The notes under the pieces: generated by a model
What the model saw: the letters and a program-made list of their open reading frames with translations, nothing else
What the model was told of the DNA's origin: nothing
The model's database searches: none
Translations under genes and position numbers: made by a program
Shown here: piece by piece, positions 3,780 through 33,893 of the stretch
Layout of the letters: each line of letters opens with the position of its first letter
How positions within the stretch are numbered: position 1 is the stretch's first letter
Assembly: GCF_002846555.1 (NCBI RefSeq)
Contig: NZ_PJMS01000001.1
Span: forward strand, 3,844,001 to 3,908,000
Direction of reading: 5' to 3'
Source: Aquimarina sp. MAR_2010_214
GTDB taxonomy: Bacteria > Bacteroidota > Bacteroidia > Flavobacteriales > Flavobacteriaceae
Length of the DNA stretch: 64,000 nt

Positions 3780-4991
3780 TTAGTCATTAATCTTTTGTCG
3801 CTTTACAGATACTTTTAAGTACAAAAGGATAATAATAGAAAGTATGGCACATACCAAAAACCCAATAAAAAGAGGTAGGGTAGTACCCAAAACAAATCTT
3901 CCGATATAGGTACTGATTGGAACTGCCATCATTGTAGAAACAAAACCCGTAATTGCAGCACCTATACCTGCAATATGACCAACAGGTTGCATGGCTAAAG
4001 CCCTTAAATTTCCGAATAAAAACCCAATAGCAAAAAATTGCATTCCGAAGAATAGTAATAAAATTTCTACGCTTGGATTTGAAGAGTTATAAAATAATAT
4101 GATGTATAACAGAGAAATCCCAAAAAATGCAAATAGAGAAGTGGTAACCAATTTCTCCATACCATATTTTAAAACAAGCGTTCCATTTAAGAAAATAGCA
4201 GAACCTATTGAAAATGCTAAAAGACCAAATATATATGGAAATTCTTCTTTTAACTGATATTGCTGTTCAAAAATTTGTTGCGAAGTACTTAGATAAACCA
4301 TAAAAGACCCCACAATGAAGCCCGAAATAAGGGTATATCCAATGGTCGTTTTGTATTGTACTAATTCTTTAAGGCCATCCATAAAAATAGTAGATGTAAA
4401 TTTAATACGTTTAGATATTTCTAAGGTTTCAGCTTGTCGTTTCCAAAACCAAAAAGATACTAGTATACTAAACACCATTTGTACATAAAATATCGTTTGC
4501 CAATCATAATGATCTAATATAAATTTTCCCAATGCGGGGGCAATAATAGGCACTAAAATAAATACTACGGTGATAAATGACATGATACGTGCCATATAAT
4601 CTCCGCTATAGATATCTCGAATCATGGCAATAGCAATAGTTCTGGGTGCTGATAGTCCAATACCTTGTAGAATTCGACCTAATACCATCATTTCTATACT
4701 TGTAGCAAAAACACAGATGAAGCTTGCAATAATAAAGAGCGCAAACCCCACATACACAACAGGTTTTCTCCCTAAACTATCTGATATTGGCCCAAAAATT
4801 AATGGACCAATACCAAGGCCAAGAAAAATCATAGTAATTAACAATTGATTATCTGCTATCTGCGTAGTACCAATAGTAATTCCTATAATATCAAGTGCTG
4901 GTAAAAGAGCATCTATAGCCAAAGCAACAATAGACATTAAAGATGCCATAAGGGTTACAAATTCAAACTGAGCGAACTTATTTTTTTGCAT
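3780..4991 (-). CDS. MFS drug transporter, Bcr/CflA type
   Basis: This 403-residue protein has about 12 hydrophobic segments. The loop between helices 2 and 3 carries the MFS signature GPISDSLGRKPVVYVG, and helix 4 to 5 has RILQGIGLSAPRTIAIAMIRD, typical of the Bcr/CflA (DHA1) drug exporters. It should export small hydrophobic compounds by proton antiport in the inner membrane. I prefer the ATG at 4991 (protein starting MQKNKF) over a GTG 27 bases upstream; a TACTTTTG box lies directly before that ATG, which would give an almost leaderless mRNA. Substrate unknown. Confidence 0.88.
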   Translation of the reverse strand: MQKNKFAQFEFVTLMASLMSIVALAIDALLPALDIIGITIGTTQIADNQLLITMIFLGLGIGPLIFGPISDSLGRKPVVYVGFALFIIASFICVFATSIEMMVLGRILQGIGLSAPRTIAIAMIRDIYSGDYMARIMSFITVVFILVPIIAPALGKFILDHYDWQTIFYVQMVFSILVSFWFWKRQAETLEISKRIKFTSTIFMDGLKELVQYKTTIGYTLISGFIVGSFMVYLSTSQQIFEQQYQLKEEFPYIFGLLAFSIGSAIFLNGTLVLKYGMEKLVTTSLFAFFGISLLYIILFYNSSNPSVEILLLFFGMQFFAIGFLFGNLRALAMQPVGHIAGIGAAITGFVSTMMAVPISTYIGRFVLGTTLPLFIGFLVCAILSIIILLYLKVSVKRQKIND

Positions 4992-19113: not shown

Positions 19114-20238
19114 CTACCTATTCACAGAGAATATGTCCTTCAATTGTTTTACCATACCACCGTCTCCAGAGACACTAATCTCACCGATTTTGTCAGCAAT
19201 TTTCTCTACATACTCCATTTCTTTAAGTTTGTAGAGCATTTCATTATCTTCCATAAGTTTGGCAGTATTTAGCAAACTACGGGTAGAGGCTGTCTCTTCA
19301 CGACGAGTAATGATATTGGCTTGCGCTCTTTTTTGAGCGATCAATACTTGGTTCATGATATCTTTCATTTCACCGGTCAAGATCACATCACGGATACCAC
19401 AGTTTAGGATTTTTACACCTAGTTTAGAAGCTTCTGTTTTTGTGTCTTCAAATACTGCTTGTGCAATACTTTCTTTACGTTCTAAAAGCTCATCCAAAGT
19501 ATAAGTACCTACATAAGTACGTAATACTAATTGCATGGCGATATACAATTGTTTTTCGTAGTCTTTATTATCCAATAAAGCTTTTTCAATATCAGTAACT
19601 TTATACTGTGTATAAAAGTTGATACGAACTGCTGCTTTATCTTTAGTCAACAATTCCTGGCCCGAAATTTCTAGTTGCAATTGACGTAAATCTGCTTTAG
19701 CAATCTTGATAGAAGTATCATTTCTCCAGAAACGGTATGTACCACTTTCTAAAGTTTTGGTATACACATCATCTACAATCAATACTGCTTTTTCATAAGC
19801 AGCTACCTCGAATGCTCTGATGTATTTAGTCAACGCATAATGGCTAAACAATGATTTATCAATCTTTTCGGTGATATAAATCTTACTTAAATCTGCTGAT
19901 GCAAATTCATAATCAATCAATCCTTTCCAGTAGACATAACGACCGGCGGATAATGTATTTTTGAAATTACCATTCTCGTACATCAGCACGATCTCATTAT
20001 CTTTTACTTCAATTAGATGTAGCATGGCTTCCAACTCCTTGTCTTGTAGTAAGAGTTCCAGTGCTACTGGTGCTGCAAAAGGTTTTGTAAGATCATATTG
20101 TATTACCCTTTCATTAAACCCTAACCAATGGATTCCTTTGGTAATTGCACGATGGTAATCTCCTTTTTTGAAAACTAAACCTACTTTGCCCGCATTAATT
20201 CTTACTCGTTTCATTTTTTTACTTTTTAAATTAAACAT
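19114..20238 (-). CDS. Slipin (SPFH/band 7 family) protein
   Basis: A 374-residue slipin without an evident N-terminal membrane helix. The SPFH core runs from about residue 145 (AAYEKAVLIVDDVYTKTLESG) through INFYTQYKVTDIEKALLDN, LVLRTYVGTYTLDELLERKE and KLGVKILNCGIRDVILTGEM; the end is a coiled coil (IITRREETASTRSLLNTAKL). Slipins of this kind recur next to RtcB genes in many bacteria. Their molecular role there is unknown; a scaffold for RNA repair is a guess. The start lies 13 bases before an alternative Met (MKRVRINAGK). Confidence 0.88.
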   Translation of the reverse strand: MFNLKSKKMKRVRINAGKVGLVFKKGDYHRAITKGIHWLGFNERVIQYDLTKPFAAPVALELLLQDKELEAMLHLIEVKDNEIVLMYENGNFKNTLSAGRYVYWKGLIDYEFASADLSKIYITEKIDKSLFSHYALTKYIRAFEVAAYEKAVLIVDDVYTKTLESGTYRFWRNDTSIKIAKADLRQLQLEISGQELLTKDKAAVRINFYTQYKVTDIEKALLDNKDYEKQLYIAMQLVLRTYVGTYTLDELLERKESIAQAVFEDTKTEASKLGVKILNCGIRDVILTGEMKDIMNQVLIAQKRAQANIITRREETASTRSLLNTAKLMEDNEMLYKLKEMEYVEKIADKIGEISVSGDGGMVKQLKDIFSVNR

Positions 20239-20640: not shown

Positions 20641-20674
20641 ATAATCAGCTTTAGAAAATGGAGTATCAGTCCAT

Positions 20675-20760
20675 ATCCTACGTTATGAGCGTAGTGCTCT
20701 ACCAACTGAGCTACGAAGCCTAAAATAGGTGGCCCCGACAGGAATCGAACCTGTGCATCC
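20675..20760 (-). tRNA. Circularly permuted tRNA-Met(CAU)
   Basis: Read on the minus strand, the 3' part comes first: variable GATGC, T stem ACAGG-TTCGATT-CCTGT and acceptor CGGGGCC plus A73 (20730-20759); a 9-base linker CCTATTTTA follows; then the 5' part GGCTTCG-TA, D arm GCTC-AGTTGGTA-GAGC, anticodon arm CTACG-CTCATAA-CGTAG and GAT (20675-20720). Both joints carry GGAT. Joining gives a full 73-nt cloverleaf; the acceptor pairs at all 7 positions including three G-U. Anticodon CAU means Met, or Ile if modified. Read in normal order no acceptor or T arm forms. Confidence 0.8.
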
Positions 20761-20835
20761 AAATGTCTGTTGTTCTAACCGCTGAACTATCTCAATTAAG
20801 AGAGTGGGAATCGAACCCACGACCTACAGATCCGG
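20760..20835 (-). tRNA. Permuted tRNA-Asn-like gene, possibly decayed
   Basis: The 3' part (A38, TCTGT, AGGTC, GTGGG-TTCGATT-CCCAC, TCTC) precedes the 5' part (GAGA-TA-GTTC-AGCGGTTA-GAAC-A-ACAGA-C). ACAGA/TCTGT pairs perfectly, as does acceptor GAGA/TCTC, and the sequence is otherwise like tRNA-Asn. But only TTAATT separates the acceptor halves, so three acceptor pairs are missing, and the anticodon itself cannot be reconstructed from the flanks. GGAT again occurs at both break points. It may be a degraded relative of the adjacent permuted tRNA or need unknown processing. Confidence 0.5.
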
Positions 20836-21128
20836 TGGCTATTTTTTGGTGAATAGCCAAAACCTTCAAGCCAAGTTGTATATGAAGTGATGATACAAAC
20901 TTTGCAATACCTCATACAATGGTGCTATACAGAAACACTCAACAAGACTCGCTTGATATTTTAATGAACTTATATTTTGTAGCGCTTCTTCTTTTACCAT
21001 CAGCGCTGAGTTTTAAGCTAAAGAGGTTCTTTATCATAGCCCTGCTACTTACCCTATATTGTAGCAGGGCACTACTTCAAACCCTTGGATATACCCCATA
21101 AACCAGAGGGCCTGTTTTAATTACACAA
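20836..21128 (-). other. Leader between operator and permuted tRNAs
   Basis: Contains a perfect 10 bp hairpin GCCCTGCTAC / GTAGCAGGGC (21039-21070), a segment CCTCTTTAGCTTAAAA (minus strand near 21015-21035) that copies the 5' end of the split tRNA at 31886, and a hairpin TGGCTATT / AATAGCCA (about 20838-20860). A 60-codon frame on the plus strand (20919-21101) covers these structures and is probably not a gene. Confidence 0.4.
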
Positions 21129-21165
21129 CAAAGATGAAATCATACTACGCAGTATTTTTGCGTAG
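21129..21165 (-). promoter_or_regulatory. Island operator/promoter 1
   Basis: Inverted repeat CTACGCA-N7-TGCGTAG (21145-21165), followed on the minus strand after exactly 13 bases by TTTG (21129-21132), the end of a -7 box. Same architecture as the promoters at 30928 and 31906. It points toward the permuted tRNAs. Confidence 0.75.
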
Positions 21166-21174
21166 ATAAAAAAA

Positions 21175-21351
21175 TCACTTATGCAAGATGCGATGTCTAT
21201 CATTTTTGCTGCTTACCTTCTTAGTTTCTGAAGGGTACAAAGCTTTACTCATCGCTTTGACATAATTTGACATCCACTTTGATAACACTCTAGTAATCAA
21301 AAGTTTAATAGAATTCATTTTTCCTTTGGTAATAGTAAAGTGAGTTTCCAT
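21175..21351 (-). CDS. Possible small basic protein, 58 residues
   Basis: ATG at 21351 to TGA at 21175 encodes METHFTITKGKMNSIKLL... ending NDRHRILHK, with 12 Lys/Arg and no acidic cluster. It lies between tRNA-Phe and island promoter 1, on the array strand. No family recognised; basic charge would suit RNA binding, as for the 74-residue protein beside RtcB. Confidence 0.4.
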   Translation of the reverse strand: METHFTITKGKMNSIKLLITRVLSKWMSNYVKAMSKALYPSETKKVSSKNDRHRILHK

Positions 21352-21393
21352 AATAATTAGATGAATTGGTTAAACATTGTTTTAAAAAATCAG

Positions 21394-21517
21394 TGGAACA
21401 GATAGGATTAGCTCATTGGATTATTATTTTTTAAATAGGTATTCGTGAATGGCTGCATTTCGGACCTATATCTTCGGATCTTCAATCCGACGCATTGACC
21501 AACTTTGCTACTGTTCC
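21394..21517 (-). tRNA. tRNA-Phe(GAA) with T-loop intron
   Basis: Exon 1: GGAACAG-TA, D arm with GTTGG, anticodon arm TCGGA-TTGAAGA-TCCGA, AGAT, ATAGG, TCCGAA. Exon 2: T, CCTAT, CTGTTCC, A73. Without the 51 nt insertion the acceptor (GGAACAG/CTGTTCC) and T stem (ATAGG/CCTAT) are perfect; with it neither forms at normal spacing. Confidence 0.87.
21408..21458 (-). other. 51 nt intron in T loop of tRNA-Phe
   Basis: Starts ATGC-A-GCCATTCACGAAT and ends CCAATGAGCTAA, inserted between nucleotides 59 and 60. Shares the start and end pattern with three other introns in this array. Confidence 0.8.
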
Positions 21518-21522
21518 TTTTG

Positions 21523-21595
21523 GGTGTACTCCGGGACTCGAACCCTGTTCCTCCCGTTCACAGCGGGGTGCTTTACCAGATAAGCTAGAGACACC
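21523..21595 (-). tRNA. tRNA-His(GUG)
   Basis: Uninterrupted, with extra G-1 opposite C73, anticodon arm CCCCG-CTGTGAA-CGGGA and T arm CAGGG-TTCGAGT-CCCGG. The acceptor GTGTCTC / AGTACAC has two mismatches near its base, so it may be partly degenerate. Confidence 0.8.
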
Positions 21596-21601
21596 ATTTT
21601 G

Positions 21602-21719
21602 ATGACCTGAAAGGATTGTTCATTGATCTCTATTGTTTTAAGAAATCACGAATGCGGGGCATTTCGAACCTTTACACCAAGAGTCAAAGTCTTGGATGCT
21701 GCCGTTACATCACAGGTCA
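21602..21719 (-). tRNA. tRNA-Gln(UUG) with T-loop intron
   Basis: Exon 1: TGACCTG, D arm with GG, anticodon arm CAAGA-CTTTGAC-TCTTG, GTGT, AAAGG, TTCGAA. Exon 2: T, CCTTT, CAGGTCA, T73. Removing 47 nt restores a perfect acceptor (TGACCTG/CAGGTCA) and T stem (AAAGG/CCTTT). Confidence 0.87.
21616..21662 (-). other. 47 nt intron in T loop of tRNA-Gln
   Basis: Starts ATGC-CCC-GCATTCGTGAT and ends ATCAATGAACAA. The segment TTCGTGAT can pair with ATCAATGAA with one bulge, bringing the splice sites together. Confidence 0.8.
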
Positions 21720-21724
21720 ATTTG

Positions 21725-21796
21725 TAAGCTCAATAGGACTCGAACCTATACTTCAAGGGTCGTAACCTTGGGTGCTTCCGTTTACACCATGAGCCC
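21725..21796 (-). tRNA. tRNA-Arg(ACG)
   Basis: Uninterrupted: GGGCTCA / TGAGCTT acceptor (two G-U pairs), anticodon arm CAAGG-TTACGAC-CCTTG, T arm ATAGG-TTCGAGT-CCTAT, A73. Confidence 0.88.
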
Positions 21797-21803
21797 ATAC
21801 TCG

Positions 21804-21877
21804 TACTCCACCTTGGATTCGAACCAAGACTGCACGGGGCTTAAACCCGATGCCTCTTCCAGTTGGGCTAGTGGAGC
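21804..21877 (-). tRNA. tRNA-Leu(UAA) with short variable loop
   Basis: Acceptor GCTCCAC / GTGGAGT, anticodon arm TCGGG-TTTAAGC-CCCGT, variable GCAGT, T arm CTTGG-TTCGAAT-CCAAG. Bacterial tRNA-Leu normally has a long variable arm; here it is only 5 nt. Confidence 0.85.
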
Positions 21878-21881
21878 ATTG

Positions 21882-21955
21882 TACAGGGAGAGAGGCTCGA
21901 ACTCTCAAGATCCTGATTCTAAGTCAGGCGCGTTTGCCAGTTTCGCCATCCCTGC
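21882..21955 (-). tRNA. tRNA-Leu(UAG) with short variable loop
   Basis: Acceptor GCAGGGA / TCCCTGT, D stem GCG/CGC, anticodon arm CCTGA-CTTAGAA-TCAGG, variable ATCTT, T arm GAGAG-TTCGAGC-CTCTC. Again lacks the long variable arm expected of tRNA-Leu. Confidence 0.85.
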
Positions 21956-22041
21956 ATTTGTTATATTAGAGTGTTCGCCAACACGCCATCTGGCCCGTTC
22001 TCTATAAATGTCTACCAGACATTTTTTCACACTCCGTCCTG
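21956..22041 (-). repeat. Hairpin spacer inside the tRNA array
   Basis: Contains AAATGTCT-GGT-AGACATTT and the segment GGCGTGTTGGCGA, both similar in style to the hairpin block at 7690-7830. It separates tRNA-Glu from tRNA-Leu and may mark an old recombination joint. Confidence 0.5.
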
Positions 22042-22113
22042 TACTCCATAAGGGAATCGAACCCTTGTCTTCCGATAGAAAGTCGGATGCACTAACCACT
22101 ATGCTAATGGAGC
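22042..22113 (-). tRNA. tRNA-Glu(UUC)
   Basis: Uninterrupted: acceptor GCTCCAT / ATGGAGT, anticodon arm TCCGA-CTTTCTA-TCGGA, T arm AAGGG-TTCGATT-CCCTT, A73. Confidence 0.9.
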
Positions 22114-22119
22114 AATTTG

Positions 22120-22243
22120 TCTAGAGAGCAGGATTAGTTCATAAGGTTAATATTTGATAATTAGGAACTCATGAATGCTACGCATTTCGAACCTACAACC
22201 TCCCGCGTCCAAGGCGGGTAAACTACCATTGTTATATCTCTAG
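22120..22243 (-). tRNA. tRNA-Pro(UGG) with T-loop intron
   Basis: Exon 1: CTAGAGA-TA, D arm with GG, anticodon arm CCCGC-CTTGGAC-GCGGG, AGGTT, GTAGG, TTCGAA. Exon 2: T, CCTGC, TCTCTAG, A73. Removing 52 nt restores a perfect acceptor (CTAGAGA/TCTCTAG) and a T stem GTAGG/CCTGC with one G-U. Confidence 0.87.
22134..22185 (-). other. 52 nt intron in T loop of tRNA-Pro
   Basis: Starts ATGC-GTA-GCATTCATGAG and ends TTATGAACTAA, between nucleotides 59 and 60. TTCAT near the start can pair with ATGAA near the end. Confidence 0.8.
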
Positions 22244-22256
22244 ATTGTTATTGCAG

Positions 22257-23570
22257 TGGTACGTTAAAGGCACATCGTTTACAAAGTTAAAGGGACATAG
22301 TTTACACTTTTTAAGGCATAATTTGAGAGGAAAATCAAATTATCATGCCTTGGAAAACCACAACAACTATGGAACAGAAAATTGAATTTATCTGTGAATG
22401 GCGAACAGGAAAATATACCATCACAGAATTATCTAAAAGCTTTGGAATCTCCAGACCAACGGCCTACAAATTGATTCAGCGATTCGAAAATCAAGGCTAT
22501 GAAGGCTTAAAAGAACAATCCAGAGTACCAGGTAAACATCCTAATGCAACCTCTGAAAATATCGTTAAAAGTATTATCAAATTAAAAGAAAAGCACAAGC
22601 TTTGGGGAGCTAAAAAAATCAGAATATTATTGTTTAAAGAGTTTACTGAACAACAAATCCCTTCTGTGGTTACTGTGCATAATATTCTTCGAAAAAATGG
22701 TTTGGTATCTCCTCAAAAACGAATGCGAAGAGTAAAACCTGTATTCCCCATTTTTGATCCAAAATCCTGTAATGAAGTATGGAGTGCTGATTATAAAGGA
22801 AAGTTTTTAATGGGTAATAAAATCTATTGTCATCCACTAACCATTGCGGACTCTAAAAGTCGATTTCTATTCACTGCTAAAGGTCATTATAAAGAAACGC
22901 TAAAAGCAGCCAAAGCTGAGTTTACAAAGGTTTTTAGAACATATGGAATCCCTAAACAAATACACACAGACAATGGAAGCCCTTTTGGATCTGTAAGAGC
23001 TATTCAACGCTATACACAATTATCTTATTGGTTTATTGAACTAGGAATCACACCTGTATTTTCTGATCCTGCTCATCCAGAACAAAATGGAAGACATGAA
23101 CGAATGCATCGTGATTTAAAAGCCGCTTGTGCTAAACCTTCAGCTTACGATTTAAAAGCACAACAACGGCGCTTAAATCACTTCGTAAAAGAGTATAATA
23201 CTATCAGACCACATGAAGCTTTAGAAATGAAAACACCTGCTGATATACACGACTTTTCCTGTAGACCATTCCCCGAAAAAATATCTAATTTTGATTACGA
23301 CACCAACCTTAAAGTACTTAAAGTAACCAAGAGTGGAGCTATTAGATGGAAGTCTTATTATTGGGTATATTTAACTGCCGCATTAAAAGGGAAATATGTA
23401 GGTATACAAGAGTTAGGCAATGGTATTTGGAAAGTTTATTATAGAAATGTATTTTTAGGTTTCTTTGATCAAAGAAACCTAAGAAAGAAACAACAAGCAA
23501 CAAGATTAGAAACTAACTTAGTGTAAACACCTAATCTTTAACTTGTGTAAACTATGTATCTTAACGAACA
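22257..23570 (+). mobile_element. IS481-type insertion sequence in the tRNA array
   Basis: Imperfect terminal inverted repeats of about 30 bp: left CGTTAAAGGCACATCGTTTACA (from 22262) and right, read inward, CGTTAAGATACATAGTTTACA. A second repeat unit (GTTAAAGGGACATAGTTTACA) lies just inside the left end. It carries one transposase and abuts the 3' end of tRNA-Asp. Ends are approximate and no clear target duplication beyond CAG is seen. Confidence 0.75.
22345..23526 (+). CDS. IS481 family transposase
   Basis: A 393-residue protein: N-terminal HTH (YTITELSKSFGISRPTAYKL), a linker domain, then an rve-type DDE core with Asp in EVWSADYKGKF, Asp in QIHTDNGSPFG and Glu in HPEQNGRHERMHRDLK. It is complete and likely active. 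It is coded opposite to the tRNA array, so the insertion splits the array transcript. Confidence 0.92.
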   Translation: MPWKTTTTMEQKIEFICEWRTGKYTITELSKSFGISRPTAYKLIQRFENQGYEGLKEQSRVPGKHPNATSENIVKSIIKLKEKHKLWGAKKIRILLFKEFTEQQIPSVVTVHNILRKNGLVSPQKRMRRVKPVFPIFDPKSCNEVWSADYKGKFLMGNKIYCHPLTIADSKSRFLFTAKGHYKETLKAAKAEFTKVFRTYGIPKQIHTDNGSPFGSVRAIQRYTQLSYWFIELGITPVFSDPAHPEQNGRHERMHRDLKAACAKPSAYDLKAQQRRLNHFVKEYNTIRPHEALEMKTPADIHDFSCRPFPEKISNFDYDTNLKVLKVTKSGAIRWKSYYWVYLTAALKGKYVGIQELGNGIWKVYYRNVFLGFFDQRNLRKKQQATRLETNLV

Positions 23571-23643
23571 CAGTACCGACGGGATTCGAACCCGTGACCT
23601 TCCGAGAGACAGTCGGGTGCACTAGCCATTGTGCTACGGTACT
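23571..23643 (-). tRNA. tRNA-Asp(GUC)
   Basis: Uninterrupted: acceptor AGTACCG / CGGTACT, anticodon arm CCCGA-CTGTCTC-TCGGA (outermost pair C-A mismatched), T arm ACGGG-TTCGAAT-CCCGT, G73. An IS481-type element begins directly after its 3' end. Confidence 0.9.
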
Positions 23644-23648
23644 AATTG

Positions 23649-23730
23649 TGGGAGTTATAGGATTCGAACCTATTCAGCTTTCACAACAGATTTACAGTCT
23701 GCCCCAACTCTCCAACTCTGGCGAACTCCC
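23649..23730 (-). tRNA. tRNA-Tyr(GUA)
   Basis: Uninterrupted class II tRNA: acceptor GGGAGTT / AACTCCC, anticodon loop CTGTAAA, variable arm of about 14 nt, T arm ATAGG-TTCGAAT-CCTAT, A73. Confidence 0.9.
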
Positions 23731-23735
23731 ATAAG

Positions 23736-23808
23736 AGACAAGAACAGGATTTGAACCTGCAAAAAACGGTTTTGCAAACCGATGCCTTAACCATTCAGCC
23801 ACCTTGTC
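23736..23808 (-). tRNA. tRNA-Cys(GCA)
   Basis: Uninterrupted: acceptor GACAAGG / TCTTGTC, anticodon arm TCGGT-TTGCAAA-ACCGT, T arm GCAGG-TTCAAAT-CCTGT, T73. Confidence 0.9.
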
Positions 23809-23812
23809 ATTG

Positions 23813-23906
23813 CGATACTACCGGTAGGACTTGAATACCGGAACCGGATCAAGTCCGGCACAGGCTCTACTACAGCTCATCGGCGCTACCATTAAGCTAC
23901 AGTATC
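23813..23906 (-). tRNA. tRNA-like gene of unresolved identity (94 nt)
   Basis: A 7 bp acceptor (GATACTG / TAGTATC), normal positions 8-9 (TA) and a D arm with GG are clear. The rest is about 21 nt too long: the T arm reads CCGGT-N11-ACCGG, and a hairpin CCGGA-CTTGA-TCCGG sits where an anticodon or long variable arm would be. It may contain another kind of intron or be decayed. I cannot name the anticodon. Confidence 0.5.
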
Positions 23907-23913
23907 TTTATTG

Positions 23914-24049
23914 TGGAGTGCAAAGGATTTCATTGTTTGTTATTTTATTAAAAGGAATGAATGCAAAGCATTTCGAACCTTCATCACGTGCTAGACGTGA
24001 ACTCGCTTAGCAGGCGAGCATAACAAAGTCAGTATTTTCTCTACGCCCC
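23914..24049 (-). tRNA. tRNA-Ser(GCU) with T-loop intron
   Basis: Exon 1: GGGGCGT, an atypical D region lacking the usual GG, anticodon arm CTCGC-CTGCTAA-GCGAG, long variable arm with TCACG/CGTGA, GAAGG, TTCGAA. Exon 2: T, CCTTT, GCACTCC, A73. Removing 44 nt restores the T stem GAAGG/CCTTT and an acceptor with one mismatch and two G-U pairs. Confidence 0.78.
23928..23971 (-). other. 44 nt intron in T loop of tRNA-Ser(GCU)
   Basis: Starts ATGC-TTT-GCATTCATTCC and ends ACAATGAAA, between nucleotides 59 and 60. TTCATT near the start pairs with AATGAA at the end. Confidence 0.75.
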
Positions 24050-24053
24050 ATAG

Positions 24054-24190
24054 CGGAAGAAGTGGGAATCGAACCCACACGAGTCATTAGCTCCTAACAG
24101 TTTTAACTCCTGGCTTCTATTGCCTTTTGGTTTCGTTGAATCGCAAGCTTATTTCAAGACTGCGGCCACCACCTATTGGCTTGTCCTTCC
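24054..24190 (-). tRNA. tRNA-Ser(UGA) with anticodon-loop intron
   Basis: Acceptor GGAAGGA / TTCTTCC (one G-U), anticodon stem GCAGT / ACTGT, loop CTTGAAA, variable arm with GAG/CTC, T arm GTGGG-TTCGATT-CCCAC, G73. A 50 nt insertion separates the loop from the 3' strand of the anticodon stem. The long variable arm supports Ser. Confidence 0.8.
24102..24151 (-). other. 50 nt intron in anticodon loop of tRNA-Ser(UGA)
   Basis: The run AAA occurs at both borders, so the cut is anywhere from 36/37 to 38/39; the canonical nuclear and archaeal site 37/38 is inside that range. The insert contains GGC-AATAGAA-GCC and has no similarity to the T-loop introns at its 5' end. It is too short for a group I intron. 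Confidence 0.7.
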
Positions 24191-24196
24191 GTAAAG

Positions 24197-24270
24197 TTGA
24201 CGTAGTAGGGCTTGAACCTACATAACCTCGGTTAAAAGCCGAGTGCTTTATCCAATTAAGCTACACGTCA
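24197..24270 (-). tRNA. tRNA-Lys(UUU), first of the array
   Basis: Uninterrupted: acceptor TGACGTG / TACGTCA, anticodon arm CTCGG-CTTTTAA-CCGAG, T arm GTAGG-TTCAAGC-CCTAC, A73. It is the most upstream gene of the minus-strand array. Confidence 0.92.
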
Positions 24271-29437: not shown

Positions 29438-31665
<2,228 letters not shown>

Positions 31666-31681
31666 ATTACATTGTTTTTTG

Positions 31682-31886
31682 TCCCTCTTCTCAGATTCGA
31701 ACTGAGACTTTCGCCTTGGCGAACAGATTGGCTCTAAATGCGCTTCCCTACTTTGATTCTTGTTCATTTCGGTGCTTCTGCAAAATCTATTCGTTAATAA
31801 GCGTATCATTAACGACATCATCCAATCACTCCACGGTTACGATCTAAAGTCTTTTACCGTAGCTCTTCCTTTTAAGCTAAAGAGGG
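31682..31886 (-). tRNA. Split tRNA with long intron
   Basis: 5' part: CCCTCTT-TA-GCTT-AAAAGGAA-GAGC-T, stem ACGGT/ACCGT around an 18-base loop, GGAGT. 3' part: CTCAG-TTCGAAT-CTGAG, AAGAGGG, A73. The acceptor pairs perfectly over 7 bp although the halves are about 120 bases apart. AGT is present at both joints, so the insertion is at the variable-loop/T-stem border. The insertion has an 8 bp hairpin TCGTTAAT/ATTAACGA. The large anticodon loop hides the anticodon (ATCGTAA would give CGU, Thr); a second small insertion is possible. Confidence 0.65.
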
Positions 31887-31941: not shown

Positions 31942-31980
31942 GATAAAAGATAATGTCTATTTTTCGACAAATATTTGATC

Positions 31981-33003
31981 ATGGCCCTCAACAAAAATGC
32001 ATTGATACGCTATAAAACTCTAGATAAATGCCTACAAAACAACAATCGGCAATGGACACTTGATGATCTGATAGAAGCATGTTCTGATGCTTTATACGAA
32101 TATGAGGGTAGAGATATCAATGTAAGTAAACGAACTGTACAATTGGATATTCAGATGATGCGTAGTGATAAATTAGGATATAATGCACCTATTGAAGTTT
32201 ATGATAAGAAGTATTATCGATATGAAGATGAAGATTATTCTATCACAGATATCCCCTTGACAGAAAATGATATGAATGTACTTTCTGAAACTGTTGAGAT
32301 GCTAAAGCAATTTAAAGATTTTTCACTATTCTCAGAACTTGGTGGCATCATCCAAAGATTAGAGGACAAAGTATATACTGAAAAAACTCATCAATCATCA
32401 ATTATTCATCTAGATAAGAACGAGAAGCTAAAAGGTTTGGAACATCTTGATACATTATATCAAGCAATCCTTAAGAAAATAGTATTGAAAATTACGTATC
32501 AATCCTTTAAAGCTAGAAATGCTTCAGAGTTTGTGTTTCATCCTTTTATCTTGAAAGAATTTAATAACAGATGGTTTTTAGTGGGAAAGCCTAATGCAAA
32601 GAAAAAGCAACCCATCGTTACTCTAGCGTTAGATAGAATCATTAGTATCGATTATGATACTCTTATACCCTATATAGAAGAAAATTTCAATGGTGATGAA
32701 TATTATAAAAATACTATAGGAGTTAGTGTATTAAATGATGAACAATTACAAGAAATCATCCTGAAAATTGACAGAAATAACACCCCTTATGTGATTACGA
32801 AACCGTTTCATCATTCTCAGGAGATTGTAGAGAAATTAGAGGATGGTAGCACCATTTTTAAATTGCGTGTTCATTTGAATTTAGAATTTGAACGTATGAT
32901 TTTAGGATTTGGAGAAACTATTGAAGTGATAGAACCAAAACAGCTTAGAAAGCGATTACGGAAGAAATTAGAAAAGACTTATCGATTATATAATGAAGTT
33001 TAA
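31981..33003 (+). CDS. WYL-domain transcriptional regulator
   Basis: 340 residues from ATG 31981 (another ATG is 6 bases earlier). N-terminal HTH region (LIRYKTLDKCLQNNNRQWTL, RDINVSKRTVQLDIQMMRS), a WYL-type domain around residues 140-220 (LKITYQSFKA, VFHPFILKEFNNRWFLVGK) and a C-terminal WCX-like extension (VHLNLEFERMILGFGETIEV). WYL regulators sense nucleic-acid-like ligands and often control defence or RNA-repair genes. It is divergent from the tRNA/236-residue/rtcB unit and is the natural candidate for the TACGCA operators. Confidence 0.88.
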   Translation: MALNKNALIRYKTLDKCLQNNNRQWTLDDLIEACSDALYEYEGRDINVSKRTVQLDIQMMRSDKLGYNAPIEVYDKKYYRYEDEDYSITDIPLTENDMNVLSETVEMLKQFKDFSLFSELGGIIQRLEDKVYTEKTHQSSIIHLDKNEKLKGLEHLDTLYQAILKKIVLKITYQSFKARNASEFVFHPFILKEFNNRWFLVGKPNAKKKQPIVTLALDRIISIDYDTLIPYIEENFNGDEYYKNTIGVSVLNDEQLQEIILKIDRNNTPYVITKPFHHSQEIVEKLEDGSTIFKLRVHLNLEFERMILGFGETIEVIEPKQLRKRLRKKLEKTYRLYNEV

Positions 33004-33893
33004 TTTATTTCTTAATCAAAAAAAAACGAATTAATTTAATAAGCTCAATGCTAACCGAAGATGGCACCATAAATCTAAATACCTTTTAAAAAATCAGAGA
33101 GTTTTATATAAAAATAATCACAAAGCACAGATAAGGTACTCTGTGATGTTTACTTTACTCCTTTCTATTCTTGAAATGTGAATGCCAGTGTCATTATATA
33201 CATCTTCTTGTGAACAGATATCATAACACCGTTAGTTGTTTTATATCGATAGTAATTATGTAAAAGTCAATTTGCGAATCTCTAGTTTCATTGTAACTAT
33301 AATGCAGTATTATGTAAAATAGCCGCTACCTATGCGCTCGATTGCTGTTTATAAATCGCGTATTTGGTTAATCATACGTAAAAAAACTTTTTATGCAATT
33401 CTCGTAAGCTTGCCACAAGAGCATAAATTTTAAGAAATCGACTTTTTAGGAGATTCACGAACACATTTGAAGTTTCTGCAAATAATTAAATGTGTGAGTA
33501 AAAATAAAATTCTATGCACTTGTTATATGTAGAACTTCAATTAATCTTTTTTTTCTTATTTTAATTTCTTTTGTCTTGAAACAAAAGAAATCGACTTTAG
33601 GAGATTCACGAACTCCAATAAAATATTATCGCATGAGCTAGACAAAAAAATAAAAACTGCATATAATTTTGGAAACATTAGAACTCGTTAACATTGCTTT
33701 GAAAACCTATTTATAATTGAAACTCTTAAGAAACTGTACTACTAAATCCCTGAAATATGCACGCTCACTCTACCTTGTTGTTTCAGCAAAATTTTATGAG
33801 ACCAATTTTAGCATCTAAGCTTTAGGTTAAATTTATACAAAAAAAAGAATGAACATTCATTTTTTTGTATATTTGCATATCAATTATAATAAA
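33004..33893. repeat. Repeat module copy B without cargo gene
   Basis: Contains the right arm of the 6428-6608 palindrome (33215-33320), TCGTAAGCTTGCCACAAGAG, and both GAAATCGACTTT..AGGAGATTCACGAAC units (33434 and 33587) only 150 bases apart, where copy A holds a GIY-YIG gene between them. The first 150 bases after the WYL gene show a hairpin CACAGA/TCTGTG (about 33130-33153) and nothing else. Confidence 0.65.
33848..33875 (+). promoter_or_regulatory. TetR operator and -7 box
   Basis: AATGAA-CA-TTCATT (33848-33861), a palindrome typical of TetR operators, is followed by TATATTTG (33868-33875), a perfect -7 box. The TetR start codon is 18 bases further. Autorepression is very likely. Confidence 0.75.

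Follow-up and report, generated by a model that had tools for sequence, protein, structure and literature searches.

Structured, dispersed mini-elements interrupt tRNA loops in Flavobacteriales and may be spliced from precursor tRNAs

The mini-elements described here form a new family, structured and dispersed, with one branch in tRNA loops; the tRNA arrays that harbour this branch often lie within RNA-repair islands. The DNA analysed, hereafter the window, is a stretch of 64,000 nucleotides (nt) at positions 3,844,001-3,908,000 of the single-contig 5.98-Mb genome of Aquimarina sp. MAR_2010_214. Here four tRNA genes are interrupted at the same T-loop site by short, related, structured inserts; an initial annotation of the window had noted short, related inserts there, and the observation was confirmed. 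We prefer to read the family as a structured, mobile mini-element with a specialisation for the 7-nt loops of tRNAs, the sense copies of which may be excised from the precursor tRNA, with the exons joined by the RNA ligase RtcB; we give this reading a probability of roughly 0.4. From the distribution of the element we infer that it is mobile at the DNA level.

The interrupted genes belong to an accessory tRNA array (20646..24270) that, like all its tRNA genes and elements described below, lies on the minus strand and holds nine intact tRNAs and five interrupted ones. ARAGORN, run on the window, called 9 tRNAs, and tRNA-Phe, -Gln, -Pro and -Ser(GCU) were not among them. Each of these four reads T stem, TTCGAA (TCCGAA in Phe), an insert of 44-52 nt, a T, and the remainder of the gene. 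The insertion point follows T-loop position 59, and the inserts measure 51, 47, 52 and 44 nt, respectively. Because AA precedes each insert and AA also ends it, three equivalent junctions fit and the exact cut is ambiguous. In tRNA-Phe(GAA) (21394..21517; 5' exon 21459-21517, 3' exon 21394-21407) the element occupies 21408..21458, and a tRNA match from Rfam spans the whole gene (51 bits). The element of tRNA-Gln(UUG) (21602..21719) lies at 21616..21662, and that of tRNA-Pro(UGG) (22120..22243) at 22134..22185. ARAGORN reported Phe(gaa), Gln(ttg) and Pro(tgg) only once the exons were joined, so the initial claim that excision restores a tRNA held for these three genes. It failed for the degenerate tRNA-Ser(GCU) (23914..24049, element 23928..23971), which is not called by ARAGORN joined or unjoined; by eye, set against its counterpart in locus L049, it shows a C.A mismatch in the acceptor and no GG in the D loop. 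The neighbouring tRNAs had been taken as normal, which is incorrect for tRNA-Ser(UGA) (24054..24190): this gene carries a related 50-nt element in its anticodon loop (24103..24152), similar to one in L053, and yields an ARAGORN call, Ser(tga), only after joining. Two low-scoring tRNA matches at 20646-20789 (34 and 29 bits) are likely remnants of further tRNAs of the array.

The elements are about 44-57 nt long and have one common fold, made up of a hairpin, P1, and a helix, P2. The 5' flank contributes its final A to P1 (A-ATGC NNN GCAT-T). Variants of this hairpin are AATCC/GGATT, AATAC/GTATT and AATGT/ACATT; among anticodon-loop copies, most of those of Ser, Glu, Cys and Tyr type have AATGAG..CGAATT, which includes a tandem G.A. 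P2 (YGARY...RYGAR) is closed by two YGAR motifs that form a tandem G.A, and the Y-R, R-Y and Y-R pairs around this tandem covary (TGAG with CGAA, CGAA with TGAG). In the window, P2 is CGAAT/ATGAG in Phe and TGAGT/ATGAA in Pro; the Gln element has an intact P1 and 2/3 of the pairs flanking the P2 tandem, and the damaged Ser(GCU) element lacks the 5' YGAR motif. Among 16 T-loop elements, two-sided changes were found at 3/3 positions of the P2 pairs and at 4/5 of the exon T stem, 97.6% of all cells were paired compared with 28.8-39.3% when slid, and no shuffle reached the covariation score. When a fixed rule was applied to 42 distinct T-loop elements, 89.7% of P2 cells were paired (72.4% in shuffles; 0/2000 as high), and the 26 elements that had not been used for the model gave 88.5% (76.1% in shuffles; 0/2000 as high). 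On this model we expect a three-way junction within the tRNA loop, with P1 and P2 both sitting on the exon stem, and such a junction did form when the isolated Pro T-arm was folded freely. The two YGAR motifs recall stem II of the hammerhead, but the CUGA strand of that ribozyme is missing, and we rejected a hammerhead identity.

The family extends well beyond the window. Contigs of GTDB were scanned with the sense T-loop pattern GGTTCGAAATGCNNNGCATT, which favours sense copies and matched in 56 stretches. We then filtered for elements that a T-stem-like match closes; 39 of the 56 stretches passed, L053 only through a shortened copy, and 17 failed. Judged by eye, 36 of these 39 fall in tRNA genes or tRNA remnants from Flavobacteriales (34 in the T loop, sense; 2 in the anticodon loop, antisense) and 3 lie outside tRNAs. 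Hosts of tRNA-located elements include Aquimarina (among them Aquimarina latercula, L034), Kordia (Kordia algicida, L065), Winogradskyella, Psychroserpens, Chryseobacterium and Epilithonimonas; no tRNA could be recognised around the elements of L035, L037 and L041, which come from Ekhidna, Cyclobacteriaceae and Cytophagaceae records. At E<=0.01 a covariance model matched 95 of 299 genomes in a family sample and 15 of 247 in a phylum sample, where about 3 and 2-3 were expected by chance; these counts mix tRNA and dispersed copies, and some weak matches (L107, L111) look false. Literature searches turned up no description of such elements, which agrees with the initial view of them as undescribed. 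A phage origin was considered and rejected: the T-loop form gave 0 matches in viral contigs in two pattern scans, and the dispersed form matched 1 stretch.

Within tRNAs, the choice of site is narrow. A scan of the fetched loci reduced 217 loose candidates to 54 tRNA calls, from which one call (His, L025) was dropped as false. None of the remaining 53 elements lies outside a T or anticodon loop: the T loop holds 36, all sense, and the anticodon loop holds 8 sense copies, in Ser, Cys and Tyr-type tRNAs, and 9 antisense copies, in Arg, Glu and Trp tRNAs, an example being Arg-TCT of Kordia (L065). The resulting proportion of sense copies (44/53, with 9/53 antisense) comes from loci fetched by a pattern that itself favours the sense orientation. 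Insertion occurs after the fifth or sixth nucleotide of the 7-nt loop, behind [GC]AA on the element strand. No antisense T-loop copy was seen for certain in loci fetched with the sense T-loop pattern, and this orientation would be excluded anyway because of the [GC]AA-in-loop rule. Across 46 array loci we located 88 P1-type starts (some overlapping), 58 of them in T-loop sequence by pattern; the other 30, classed by eye, are in anticodon loops, except for one more T loop and an unassigned start in L018 near 5043. No element was seen in array spacers among these 88 starts, which were judged partly by eye. In L065, near-identical Ser(UGA)-type anticodon-loop elements at 4118 and 4231, ~113 nt apart, possibly reflect a duplicated tRNA half.

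Stem pairing of the joined tRNAs averaged 20.2 of 21 for sense T-loop (n=36), 19.5 for sense anticodon-loop (n=8) and 20.4 for antisense copies (n=9), compared with 20.1 of 21 for intact tRNAs of the same loci (n=319); the figures cover joined tRNAs that ARAGORN recognises, and recognition selects healthy genes. Most interrupted genes are the sole carrier of their anticodon within the locus. In the five closest orthologous pairs (element identity at least 0.9), 5/6 changed stem pairs still pair, one of them through a two-sided change. Over all pairs with element identity of at least 0.8, which are non-independent, changed stem pairs still pair in 31/39 cases for sense T-loop, 7/11 for sense anticodon-loop and 13/19 for antisense copies. 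For most compared pairs descent cannot be assumed, because sharing a tRNA slot raises the similarity of two elements only a little (0.759 in 74 same-slot pairs, 0.722 in 610 pairs from different slots); vertical inheritance was set aside on these figures. Whether damaged elements accompany damaged tRNAs was examined in 43 T-loop cases, where ARAGORN recognised the joined tRNA in 30/39 with well-formed elements and in 2/4 with ill-formed ones, L018 being ill-formed only by the fixed reading rule.

Several observations weigh against splicing, and many of them favour a plain DNA element, an alternative that we regard as almost as likely as the splicing reading. On this alternative, the family would be a small non-autonomous insertion element, resembling a miniature inverted-repeat transposable element (MITE), that prefers [GC]AA targets and tRNA loops and inactivates spare tRNA genes with no splicing. 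We collected 40 distinct copies outside tRNAs that keep the fold; they are intergenic, within larger repeats, or antisense beside HTH_21 and rve pieces of IS3-type transposases. The antisense copies in tRNAs (9/53) look as healthy as the sense copies, and folding of the element itself cannot splice them out of the transcribed tRNA. The host genome also holds intact Phe(gaa), Gln(ttg), Pro(tgg), Ser(gct) and Ser(tga) genes elsewhere, among 43 further tRNAs called outside the array in the host-genome stretches examined (one anticodon unclear). The array is therefore redundant in its host, the sole-copy test for necessity failed, and the need for element removal is not proven. Genomes G310 and G390 gave 59 and 64 tRNA matches, as counts without anticodons. 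Some interrupted tRNAs have decayed: nine of the 39 T-loop tRNAs with well-formed elements are uncalled by ARAGORN even when joined. Closely similar elements in the T loops of different tRNAs, namely Arg(acg) in L028, Leu(taa) in L038 and L053, and Gln of the window, likewise favour a MITE-like element.

Further difficulties for splicing come from folding, from the joined sequences and from gene linkage. Folded freely, the Phe, Gln and Pro precursors lack the junction in their best structures, and the T-arms of L055 and L032 fold with the exon paired to the element instead. Tyr-type tRNAs with an anticodon-loop element (L018, L038, L053, L064) join to anticodon GAA, not GUA, with a joined loop of CTGAAAA where the nearest intact relative has CTGTAAA. 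Two Arg genes give a joined loop of TTTCGAA (nearest intact relatives TTACGAC or CTACGAA), and it looks as if the insertion either supplies GAA at its left edge or needs it there. RtcB is not linked to the elements in two Chryseobacterium-like genomes, where it sits on a different contig or about 420 kb off. The flanks of the dispersed copies, finally, have no preference for a hairpin (stem of at least 4 bp in 15/33 vs 41% in shuffles, p=0.32), and hairpin targeting of these copies was also rejected under three narrower definitions (p=0.36-0.86, n=30).

This last result is awkward for a MITE-like element as well, as the loop specificity in tRNAs then needs another cause. Also against it are the exons that keep pairing, the lack of any element seen in array spacers or other tRNA parts, and the lack of a gene between element ends among 27 pattern matches in 10 genomes. 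The idea of an autonomous element was rejected on those same matches, whose 27 inserts are element-sized by eye, some with weak 3' ends. The initial interpretation is upheld in part, for the short, related insertions at one T-loop site whose removal restores good tRNAs in three of the four genes. As to whether they would be introns in the sense of RNA splicing, RtcB beside the arrays and the preserved pairing of the exons speak for it, and the antisense and dispersed copies, the redundancy of the host tRNAs and the altered joined anticodons of Tyr-type genes speak against it.

Individual copies outside tRNAs showed features of their own. In L079, L080, L082, L086, L089, L185 and L190, antisense elements lie within sequences of IS3-type transposases at apparently one homologous site, with HTH_21 and rve pieces recognised in L080 and L082, and G100 has three element copies with at least 1.3 kb of common flank. 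The window contains a possible dispersed copy at 33435-33503 on the plus strand, between the WYL gene described below and the next gene (AAATC..GATTC, P2 CGAAC/GTGAG, P1 of 4 bp with a 12-nt loop). In the Cytophagales-type records L041 (4110-4624), L035 and L037, the elements have a GC-rich P2 loop and come after ..GATGAGAAC..GGTTCGAA, outside a recognised tRNA. L041 carries four tandem element copies ~148 nt apart.

We also considered reversible insertion at the DNA level, in which the element would be excised precisely from folded single-stranded DNA and the array would toggle between interrupted and intact states. Such a process would work in both orientations. Moreover, the window and L034 have identical Gln exons around elements that are 65% identical, and this tRNA occurs uninterrupted in L049, a pattern suggesting that an element was gained and cleanly lost at a single site. 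However, no excisionase was found, and a Y1 transposase match, present in 6/8 genomes with tRNA elements, is absent from G120 and G179; several of the matches contain stops. We consider reversible insertion unlikely.

Returning to excision of sense copies and joining by RtcB, we envisage the following course. The tRNA branch of the element would be specialised for 7-nt loops with [GC]AA ahead of the insertion, and sense copies would be cut from the precursor tRNA at both ends of the junction, either by the element itself as a ribozyme or by a nuclease. The exons would then be ligated by the RtcB encoded beside the array, and the arrays themselves may serve as spare tRNAs for translation stress. 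The partner ends in RtcB ligation carry a 5'-OH. Self-cleaving RNA or a metal-independent nuclease would leave ends that RtcB can join, which makes splicing of sense copies plausible, no more. RtcB ligates 3'-phosphate or cyclic-phosphate ends (passages in PMC10272220 and PMC7824862) and has a role in tRNA intron splicing (PMC10272220).

The window encodes an RtcB-family RNA ligase at 29438..30961 on the minus strand (PF01139, E=3.2e-38), with relatives near arrays in 5 further genomes. It is overlapped by a gene for a 288-amino-acid protein without a Pfam match (30955..31821, minus strand; relative at L165:6666-7391), and a WYL-domain regulator is divergent from rtcB (31975..33003, plus strand). 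On the other side of the array is a Band_7/SPFH protein of slipin type (19114..20238, minus strand). Comparison of six islands found a relative of the WYL regulator in all 6, RtcB in all 6 (two copies in 3) and a Band_7 slipin relative in 4; RlaP and a PrfH-like RF-1 protein were recognised by Pfam in the single island scanned for them. Of 8 genomes selected for having tRNA-located elements, 6 have their nearest RtcB-family gene at a distance of 2.9-11.2 kb from the elements. A 110-nt Rfam tRNA match at G310:C1:696518-696627 lies ~350 nt from an RtcB gene. Inside the array of the window, between interrupted Pro and intact Asp, is an rve/IS481-like transposase gene (22345..23526, plus strand; Pfam rve_3, rve and LZ_Tnp_IS481).

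If the sense copies are spliced, bacteria would have a further type of tRNA intron and bacterial RtcB a natural substrate, and the element could also be a very small ribozyme; the substrates of the enzymes of the RtcB operon are called unknown at the outset in the abstract of PMC7790460. In its most specific form, which we advance tentatively, the proposal is that sense copies would be the smallest known structured tRNA intron class and the first bacterial one outside group I: a ~50-nt tandem-G.A three-way junction, religated by RtcB and mobile into the T and anticodon loops of stress-related arrays. Should the family be no more than a DNA element, we would have a mobile repeat unusually fond of 7-nt tRNA loops on either strand, and the family would more fairly be seen as a variety of mobile repeat. 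Under either reading the tRNA sets of Flavobacteriales are probably mis-counted in many cases, because ARAGORN misses the interrupted genes.

Archaeal tRNA introns are spliced by EndA and RtcB at sites that also lie outside the anticodon, and T-loop introns are known among them. Our elements are similarly short inserts in tRNA loops, also outside the anticodon, and RtcB is the ligase of the archaeal introns. In contrast to these, the elements lack a bulge-helix-bulge, are expected to form a tandem-G.A three-way junction, and have antisense and dispersed copies. By inspection, the 4-bp helix of the archaeal type, which joins the start of the intron to exon 2 and has 3-nt bulges at its sides, could not be drawn, as the ATGC that starts the insert pairs with GCAT of P1 and not with exon 2; exon 2 starts TCC in most cases, and six exon nucleotides lie between the T stem and the cut. 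Bacterial group I introns in tRNA anticodon loops, which are several times longer than the elements, also interrupt a bacterial tRNA gene in a loop; unlike them, the elements have the T loop as their main site and no group I match in Rfam. Only tRNA-type and weak plastid cis-regulatory models of Rfam match the elements (E up to 1, window 21390-24200); no ribozyme or intron family of Rfam was reported in the window or in 8 loci, and no group I match reached the gathering score in the 8 loci. Although the tRNA introns of bacteria are group I introns (passages in PMC4090602), this evidence, together with a length of only 44-57 nt, makes either a group I or an archaeal-type bulge-helix-bulge intron very improbable.

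Repetitive extragenic palindromic (REP) and MITE-type elements that are mobilised in trans (IS200/IS605, RAYT) resemble the family in being short, dispersed and often intergenic, with a palindrome at one end; our elements add a second conserved helix and specific tRNA-loop sites. Because no known class under consideration matched the elements in those of its defining features that were tested, we place the family outside them all. A parallel to the island is the trn operon of Anabaena, whose 26 spare tRNAs are silent and repressed by TrcR, as are rtcB and, from expression data, a slipin gene (passages in PMC10272220). There, as here, a spare tRNA array is associated with rtcB and a slipin gene, co-regulated in Anabaena for translation stress; in that system the repressor is a ribbon-helix-helix protein, compared with a WYL regulator here, and the tRNA operon is plasmid-borne, apart from the chromosomal rtcB (PMC10272220). 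Such elements are not mentioned in the passages of PMC10272220 cited here. The tRNA-supply and RNA-repair functions of jumbo phages, as described in passages of PMC7824862, also recall the gene set of the island.

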